Below, in pieces: positions 61,224 through 62,833 of a stretch of 62,833 nt of DNA. Position 1 is the stretch's first letter, and the number at the start of each line of letters is the position of its first letter. The stretch is taken from IMG/VR virus record IMGVR_UViG_3300023184_000120, positions 1 through 62,833 of that record; one strand, written 5' to 3'. This stretch comes from a virus. The notes below the pieces were generated by a model that made no database searches, was not told where the DNA came from, and was given only the letters and a program-made list of their open reading frames with translations. Made by a program: the position numbers and the translations under genes.

Positions 61224-62833
61224 ATGTTTCAAATAACTAGGTTCGTGATGGAGGACTTCGTTGACTCCCTCGATCAGATCATCTATATCGTATCGCTTAA
61301 CAAGCGCTACATGGTGTACAACGCATCTCGTAGACGTCTCGTCTACTCAGAGATGCAGTACATGGATGCGGGTAAGAAGCCCCTCGATCTGATTACTACA
61401 GGCAACTTAGCTGTGTGGACTCGTACCTCACGCTATCGTGTCAAGGGTGAGGGGGAATTCGCACCTCGTGCCATGACCTATCGAGACGCCGTTGCCGAGT
61501 GCCATGATCGTTACGATATGCATCAGATGATGCGTACTCTGTTGACACCTCGCAGTATTGGGGAGCTTCCTCGTTTGGCTCGCAGTCTGTTGTCTTCTCG
61601 TGTCGACAAAGTCGTTGAGGGTTACGCAAGGAGTCATGACTCCAGTTCGGGTTACTCAGACCCTAACCCATGCGCTAAGTTCAAGGACTCGTACTACTAC
61701 GATGGCAGCACTGCTCAATTCCTCCTCGCTCGCAAGACATATCGTGACTTCGGTCACCTTGTTGCTCGTGCCAAGGCAGGGGATGAGGCAGTCACCAATG
61801 ACCAGCTAAGCACTGCGTTCTTTGACTTGTCTGGTCGTTACAGCGATGCCACTAGCCATATGGAGAATGCATTCGATGCTGTCCGTGATATGGATCTAGG
61901 CATTGTGCATTGCGACTGCGGTCACTACGAGGACGAGAACAACACGCACGATGTGCGTCGTGACACGTGGTGTGACTCGTGCTTCAGTGATGACGCTGTG
62001 TACTGCGAGGACAATGATGAGTACTGGCCTCGTGACGATGCGTACTACTCGGAGCGTAACGACTGCTACTACTCGTATGAGCGTGATGACGATGACGATG
62101 ACGATGACGATGACGATGAGGAAGATCATAACCAGCCAATCATGTCGTACTCTACCAATGTGCTTCATGTGCTTGACGATCCTTCGGGCATCACGTCGTC
62201 TCACTTCGGTGAGTTCACGATGGGCATTGAGCTTGAGATGACATCAGGCGACTCGGACACCAACTCAGCCGCTGAGTCTGTGCGTAGCCGCTTGGGTACC
62301 TCATACTGCATCATCAAGAGTGATGGCTCGCTTCCTTACAATGGCTTCGAGGTCGTGACTTCACCGCAAGGTCTAGCCAAGCACATCGAGAAGTTCAAAG
62401 CGTGGGAGATCGATCCAACCTATCGTGCATGGAACACGGGCAAGTGCGGTATGCATGTCCATATCGACTCCCGTGCCTTCACGCAGTTGACGCTTGGCAA
62501 GTTCCTCATGTTCATCAACAGCAATGGCAACGTCGACTTCATTCGTAAGATTGCTGGTCGCCATCCATCTGTCGATGACCAAGCCCGTAGCTACTGCGCC
62601 GCTGAGCATCAGTCCATCCTTACCAACCCCAAGAAGGCTGTCAAGGGTAAGTCTGGTGAGCGCTATCGCATGGTTAATATGTGCAACCTTGGCTCTCGTG
62701 AGGCTCGGCGTCTTGGTCTTAACATGGACAACAGCTACAACGGCAAGTACAACACTGTCGAGTTGCGTATCTTCCGTGCTTCGCTCAAGAAGGAACGTCT
62801 GCTTGCACAGATCGAGTTCACTCATGCGTCTGT
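61224..62833 (+). CDS. Amidoligase (ATP-grasp COOH-NH2 ligase), 3' end open
   Basis: Starts at ATG 61224 behind AAGGAGAAA. 536 residues are visible without a stop. Residues 1-225 are not recognised. A Cys-rich region (C230, C232, C250, C253, C261, C281) looks like a zinc finger and is followed by 11 consecutive Asp (288-298, encoded by a GATGAC repeat). The catalytic part has GIELEM (334-339), SDGSL (D367), FEVVTSP (E376), CGMHVHID (408-415), MVNMCNLG (483-490) and TVELRIFR (E513-R518). These match the phage amidoligase family, which forms amide or peptide bonds using ATP. Its partner is probably the class II amidotransferase at 48. If the window ends join, the frame stops at 11-13. Confidence 0.9.
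   Translation, partial: MFQITRFVMEDFVDSLDQIIYIVSLNKRYMVYNASRRRLVYSEMQYMDAGKKPLDLITTGNLAVWTRTSRYRVKGEGEFAPRAMTYRDAVAECHDRYDMHQMMRTLLTPRSIGELPRLARSLLSSRVDKVVEGYARSHDSSSGYSDPNPCAKFKDSYYYDGSTAQFLLARKTYRDFGHLVARAKAGDEAVTNDQLSTAFFDLSGRYSDATSHMENAFDAVRDMDLGIVHCDCGHYEDENNTHDVRRDTWCDSCFSDDAVYCEDNDEYWPRDDAYYSERNDCYYSYERDDDDDDDDDDDEEDHNQPIMSYSTNVLHVLDDPSGITSSHFGEFTMGIELEMTSGDSDTNSAAESVRSRLGTSYCIIKSDGSLPYNGFEVVTSPQGLAKHIEKFKAWEIDPTYRAWNTGKCGMHVHIDSRAFTQLTLGKFLMFINSNGNVDFIRKIAGRHPSVDDQARSYCAAEHQSILTNPKKAVKGKSGERYRMVNMCNLGSREARRLGLNMDNSYNGKYNTVELRIFRASLKKERLLAQIEFTHAS

Follow-up and report, generated by a model that had tools for sequence, protein, structure and literature searches.

A conserved amidoligase and class II glutamine amidotransferase gene pair in the early region of a tailed phage

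Introduction

A phage cassette of an amidoligase and a glutamine amidotransferase (GAT) was predicted by Iyer et al. (2009), as quoted in PMC10580990, a paper that itself reports amidoligase and GAT genes in OM43 phages. That paper cites Iyer et al. (2009) for a cell-wall change and superinfection prevention in phiEco32, and cites the Marvin paper, in which the synthesis of a secondary metabolite is suggested. A larger cassette is found in RIO1-like, LUZ24-like and phiEco32 phages (PMC5498523, PMC3890496), and the phiEco32/LUZ24/RIO1-type cassette carries the name ‘peptidoglycan modification cassette’ (PMC5498523). Amidoligase and GAT pairs have been listed in phages since 2009 with guesses as to their role, namely cell-wall change and superinfection exclusion. 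A literature search for tests of the functions suggested for such phage pairs found none.

Here, we describe one of these pairs in the window, the whole stretch of 62,833 nucleotides that was analysed. An initial annotation, made from the letters of the window, had proposed that the pair belongs with those that the Aravind group predicted for phages, which is borne out by the papers that quote Iyer et al. (2009).

Results

Genomic setting and the gap in the ligase gene

The window is an IMG/VR record of 62,833 bases, and its gene content is that of a tailed phage. The minus strand holds the late genes, including those for the terminase, the portal and other virion proteins, and the plus strand carries the early genes: the ligase and GAT pair, a DNA polymerase, a helicase and a primase. 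The terminase is approximately 50% identical to the terminases of Pelagibacter phages and Phage DSL-LC04, and a near-identity DNA search among isolated phages returned no match. In the late region, a single open frame of 3668 residues occupies positions 14706-25712 (minus strand); its matches to PHROG families, both function-unassigned, are limited to roughly the last 500 residues. A row of several similar Gly-rich, tail-fibre-like genes lies at 35991-40508 (minus strand), of which 35991-36857 matches phrog_2295. An HNH-type gene (37181-37843) is located among them, and another HNH-like gene is found at 44741-45208.

The amidoligase gene (61224-62833, plus strand) is cut in its 3' part by the end of the contig, and the GAT gene (48-1154, plus strand) lies at the beginning. 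From position 61224, the ligase frame extends over 536 codons to the window end, with about 160 codons missing. In two relatives, L009 and L012, whose GATs are both 100% identical to that of the window, 484 bp lie between the bases that match the two ends of the window; the complete ligase is about 695 residues long and its stop lies 59 nt before the GAT start. Compared with these relatives, the window reads as a linear record whose two ends flank a gap within the ligase gene. Because the relatives show that 484 bp are missing, the ligase of the window is taken to have about 695 residues and to end 59 nt from the GAT. The initial annotation had joined the window as a circle, with the two genes 34 nt apart. 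This is wrong, and a circular join is ruled out by the 484 bp absent relative to L009 and L012. Such a join creates a premature ligase stop inside a hairpin; the 34-nt spacer and the early stop arose because a contig with a hole was joined to itself.

The two genes are inseparable in viruses and mostly paired in bacterial genomes

Profile scans of IMG/VR returned at least 535 ligase-encoding and 477 GAT-encoding stretches, and the best 80 of each were kept. From the best 80 of at least 535, all 69 distinct viral ligases with enough flanking sequence are adjoined by a GAT. From the best 80 of 477, the ligase precedes the GAT in all 72 distinct viral GATs with enough flank. Automatic scoring counted 67 of the 69 ligases; its two misses (L057 and L121) are artefacts, as a long open frame extends ahead of the GAT start in each, and both hold the pair. 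The spacing between the genes is mostly 11-82 nt, extending to 470-1049 nt in four loci. In the wide-spaced loci L115, L148, L190 and L196, these several hundred to about 1000 nt leave room for an inserted gene.

In bacterial genomes, both genes are present at 26 of 28 loci. The nearest four of these belong to Burkholderiales and the rest mostly to Clostridia, with a ligase identity of 23-29%. Among isolate phages, the pair is carried by MEP401/402, ctgrD200, Pringar and its relatives, and Acinetobacter phage 313. The last of these (L072, PX050566.1) has a second GAT-like stretch elsewhere, at 21488-22303.

The ligase and the GAT are inseparable: their adjacency is far above chance and extends to every assessable viral relative. 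Conserved adjacency had been named in the initial annotation as a check on the pair, and the counts above, viral and bacterial, bear it out; they also support its view that the two proteins are functionally linked. In a set of 48 representative loci, the ligase and GAT are the only genes common to all, and no further gene recurs. Of the families next in frequency, some occur within the phage clade alone and others are shadow frames of the two genes. A substrate encoded by a conserved third gene is therefore ruled out for these loci.

Clostridioides phage AR1086-1 has an amidoligase, but searches of its record found no GAT and no PF06094 cyclotransferase, which rules it out as another pair. Because the ligase occurs there by itself, members of the wider ligase family do not all need a GAT.

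Catalytic domain and fold class of the ligase

The window ligase matches Pfam Amidoligase_2 (PF12224) at 34.5 bits (cut-off 22), and all 46 aligned ligases match this family at E ≤ 0.1. Its assignment also draws on the open frame at 61224-62831, the complete 695-residue homologue and the Foldseek comparison described below. The catalytic domain (62217-62833, plus strand), whose C-terminal edge is missing, contains the motifs GIELE, SDGSL, GFEVVTSP, CGMHVH, RYRMVN and TVELRIFR. Across the 46 ligases, the motif positions GxExE, DxS, CGxHxH, R..N and TxExR are invariant, corresponding in L009 numbering to G336, E338, E340, D369, S371, E378, C410, G411, H413, H415, R448, R482, N487, T513, E515 and R517. 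The initial annotation had recognized an amidoligase at 61224 by GIELEM, DGSL, CGMHVHI and TVELRIFR, all of which are present, and the Pfam score agrees. It had named the loss of catalytic residues as evidence against its reading; these residues are intact in both the ligase and the GAT.

The model of the ligase homologue has a pLDDT of 85.5. Foldseek matches it to YbdK, annotated as putative glutamate-cysteine ligase 2, and to glutamine synthetases, including gamma-glutamylmethylamide synthetase, with a best E of 8.9e-4 and low TM-scores (0.2-0.3). The model also matches many viral amidoligases, one of which is named a LIM-domain protein. The predicted fold class is that of glutamine synthetase/glutamate-cysteine ligase (GS/GCS), and because the TM-scores are low, only the class and not its details is claimed. 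A PDB sequence search with the ligase profile gave no real match (Hfq at E 0.6 is a chance hit), and hhalign of the profile against E. coli YbdK aligned the GxHxH motif alone, at 7.6% probability; these two comparisons therefore give no independent support for the fold. No ATP-grasp enzyme is found among the 50 Foldseek matches listed, and an ATP-grasp fold is ruled out, as GS/GCS folds are returned. The initial annotation had implied an ATP-grasp-like fold and held that its absence would count against the ligase. That expectation was mis-specified because the fold is GS/GCS.

Ligase regions outside the catalytic domain

Ahead of the catalytic domain, the ligase consists of a variable N-terminal domain, a Cys-rich module and an acidic linker. 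The Cys-rich CxxC module (61899-62090, plus strand) is probably a zinc-binding, LIM/zinc-ribbon-like element, as judged from conserved Cys columns, CxxC counts and a LIM match in one relative. Its CxC...CxxC columns are retained across the ligase alignment, and an earlier Cys column is kept in nearly all members. All 45 ligases checked have CxxC before the ligase domain, with 87 motifs against 16.3 expected from shuffles. The clostridial member L229 matches Pfam LIM at 39.8 bits, and other members match weakly. The window's own ligase, which keeps CxC...CxxC alone, reaches none of the Pfam zinc families; because of this, zinc binding is treated here as probable rather than observed. A literature search for an amidoligase with a LIM domain found no paper.

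The Asp/Glu tract (62091-62121, plus strand) follows. This acidic linker varies in length: nearly all phage ligases have a D/E-rich stretch here, which is short or absent in L214 and Clostridia. In the model of the homologue, pLDDT falls below 50 at residues 291-301, the acidic tract, which is probably disordered. The Cys-rich region and the Asp tract had both been called unusual in the initial annotation. Both are present. The Cys-rich part, however, is conserved and has an equivalent even among clostridial ligases, and the tract is an acidic linker that differs in length between members.

The N-terminal domain (residues 1-220; 61224-61883, plus strand) is variable, and no relative of a known kind was found for it. 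Within the window's clade, median identity is 44% over these 220 residues vs 90% in the ligase domain. The dN/dS ratio is 0.17 in the ligase domain, a mark of strong purifying selection, 0.35 in the N-terminal part and 0.49 in the C-terminal part, and therefore no part of the ligase gives evidence of positive selection. When 61224-62833 is compared with L009:124-2208, DNA identity is 52-97% at gene bases 101-900 and 100% at 1001-1500, and the GAT region is 99.9% identical. This identity drop suggests that the front of the ligase gene may have been exchanged by recombination, with the boundary inside the gene.

The GAT and its relation to GlmS and EgtC

The GAT gene encodes a class II (Ntn) glutamine amidotransferase of 368 residues, identified by invariant residues and by profile and fold matches to GlmS. 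The protein starts with MCLIITG and carries HFRWTTHG, HNG and SDT. In 46 aligned GATs, M1, C2, R76, T79, G81, N103 and G104 are invariant, and D118 is kept in nearly all. The family profile reaches the GlmS glutaminase domain in the PDB at 5.5e-6. The model (pLDDT 81.7) matches GlmS and EgtC, with moderate Foldseek TM-scores of about 0.5 by target. EgtC with a bound gamma-glutamyl substrate is the second-best kind of structural match, nearly equal to GlmS. The stand-alone Ntn amidotransferase that the initial annotation recognized at 48-1154 by Cys2, HFRWTTHG and HNG is thus upheld by these motifs and by the profile and model. In the HMM search that it suggested for both proteins, the ligase exceeds the Pfam cut-off, and the window GAT alone stays sub-threshold against Pfam GATase models (12.7-13.4 bits, E 0.06-0.08). 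Other members of the GAT family reach E 3.8e-15.

Hairpins flanking the pair

Three terminator-like hairpins accompany the pair on the plus strand. The first (61179-61196, TCGGGGACTTGTCCCCGA) lies just upstream of the ligase gene and is followed by T-rich sequence and AAGGAG. The second (5-21) has a T-rich tail, is located between the ligase and the GAT and resembles a terminator or processing site; in the hairpin comparison it is largely limited to the window's clade, and most of the more distant pairs, with short spacers, are without it. The third (1161-1178) lies 3' of the GAT; of about 60 distinct relatives whose sequence covers this site, 58 have a hairpin at it, and the stem often differs. 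The arrangement is consistent with an operon whose end lies after the GAT; in the window's clade, transcription may also stop in part between the two genes. A single transcript ending at 1161-1184, as initially proposed, is plausible, but a second terminator-like hairpin stands at 5-21.

Discussion

On balance, we lean slightly towards the pair being a two-subunit, glutamine-dependent, amide-forming ligase with a CxxC docking module, encoded by the phage to modify a host or phage molecule. In this scheme, Cys2 of the GAT, freed as the nucleophile when Met1 is removed, would hydrolyse glutamine. The ligase, with its GS/GCS fold and Mg-ATP, would activate a carboxylate as an acyl phosphate, and the ammonia released by the GAT, possibly channelled between the subunits, would attack it to give a primary amide. 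The CxxC module ahead of the ligase domain, probably zinc-binding, may dock a partner or substrate, and the rapidly diverging N- and C-terminal ends of the ligase may read the substrate or an adaptor. The phage carries the pair among its early replication genes and would use it to alter a molecule of its own or of its host. For systems of this sort, the guess given in the sources quoted here is the cell wall, with superinfection being blocked. A peptide or a host envelope component, the target suggested in the initial annotation, is at most a candidate, as no result of this analysis points to it.

This reading is drawn from the family motifs, the GlmS-like GAT, the YbdK/GS-like fold of the ligase, the adjacency and the purifying selection, as well as from the recurrence of only two genes in 48 loci and the early location near DNA polymerase, helicase and primase. 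Against it stand the low TM-scores of the ligase, for which no sequence-level PDB match was obtained, the amidoligase without a GAT in AR1086-1, and the nearly equal fit of the GAT to EgtC, which removes gamma-glutamyl groups and feeds no ligase.

The direction of the reaction may also differ. A GCS-like ligase could join the gamma-carboxyl of glutamate to an amine, and the Ntn protein could later remove it, cf. EgtA/EgtC and PuuA/PuuD. This is a rather unlikely but serious rival, because substrate-bound EgtC is the second-best kind of GAT match, gamma-glutamyl ligases are among the closest ligase folds (YbdK, glutamine synthetase and gamma-glutamylmethylamide synthetase), and elsewhere amidoligases adjoin genes for AIG2/gamma-glutamyl cyclotransferase, another enzyme that cleaves gamma-glutamyl groups (PMC5513430, PMC11318856). 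However, at the 48 loci no gene of an intermediate pathway is conserved between or beside the pair, the tested genomes with a stand-alone pair lack PF06094, and the strict 1:1 adjacency suits a two-subunit enzyme at least as well.

We regard it as improbable that the product of the pair is a small modified peptide or metabolite (RiPP-like or nucleotide-like) and not an altered macromolecule. By the title of Iyer et al., the 2009 prediction extends to the synthesis of metabolites in addition to the modification of peptides, and the suggestion made for Marvin, as cited in PMC10580990, points the same way; yet genes for a precursor peptide, a transporter or a tailoring enzyme do not recur beside the pair at the 48 loci. 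In the early genes examined there is no modified-base pathway gene, and at the 48 loci the pair occurs without a conserved base-modification gene, which makes DNA or nucleotide hypermodification, with the ligase adding an amide to a modified base, highly improbable, although the pair sits in the early replication region and phages use amide chemistry on bases.

A wider reading may be considered, which we find quite unlikely: a two-protein post-translational or envelope-tagging system spread across unrelated phages and bacterial genomes, in which a shared zinc module, borne by the ligase in one group and by the GAT in another, would dock the substrate or partner and the variable N-terminal domain would set the host target for each phage. 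Apart from this reading, the pair itself is an irreducible unit in the assessable viral cases (69 of 69 ligases and 72 of 72 GATs); in the genomes tested it stands without PF14395 or PF06094 partners, and the CxxC module and the variable N-terminal domain belong to it. Its function is therefore testable with two genes, and the cultured phages MEP401, Pringar and Acinetobacter phage 313 carry the same pair.

Among known systems, EgtA/EgtC (ergothioneine) and PuuA/PuuD (putrescine) likewise combine a GS/GCS-fold ligase with an amidohydrolase that cleaves gamma-glutamyl bonds. They differ in being sequential enzymes that act on one metabolite within longer pathways, and PuuD has a class I GAT fold. 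MurT/GatD, which amidates peptidoglycan glutamate, resembles the pair as two co-transcribed genes for a ligase and a GAT, in its case a Mur-ligase-type ligase and a class I GAT; to our knowledge, neither is homologous to a window protein. MurT/GatD gives primary amides on the cell wall (PMC3267633).

The OM43 (Methylophilales) phages MEP401/402 and the Marvin-type mycobacteriophages (Pringar, Tesla) share with the window a stand-alone adjacent pair and a Cys-rich ligase N-terminus. They differ in sequence, with about 24-31% identity, and the GAT of Pringar also has C-terminal CxxC motifs. As in the window, the early regions of LUZ24 (gp18-gp19) and phiEco32 (84-83) have an Amidoligase_2 gene beside one for a class II GAT, and the GAT model built here finds both of these GATs. 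The phiEco32/LUZ24-type cassettes add a PF14395 COOH-NH2 ligase, a RimK-type ATP-grasp gene and a gamma-glutamyl cyclotransferase. PF14395 is absent from the window and nine relatives, and PF06094 from the window and the relatives tested; both searches detect their targets in LUZ24 and phiEco32. The RimK-type ATP-grasp model has no match in the window, but it also misses LUZ24 gp21. Motifs of the CxxC type lie at the C-terminus of the GAT in LUZ24 gp19 (L242), phiEco32 83 (L243) and Pringar 109 (L071), and before the ligase domain in the window's group. Unlike the ligases of that group, those of LUZ24 and phiEco32 are without a Cys-rich N-terminal segment. In conclusion, the pair is a variation on the kind predicted in 2009, one in which no second ligase or cyclotransferase was found and in which the ligase itself carries the CxxC module.
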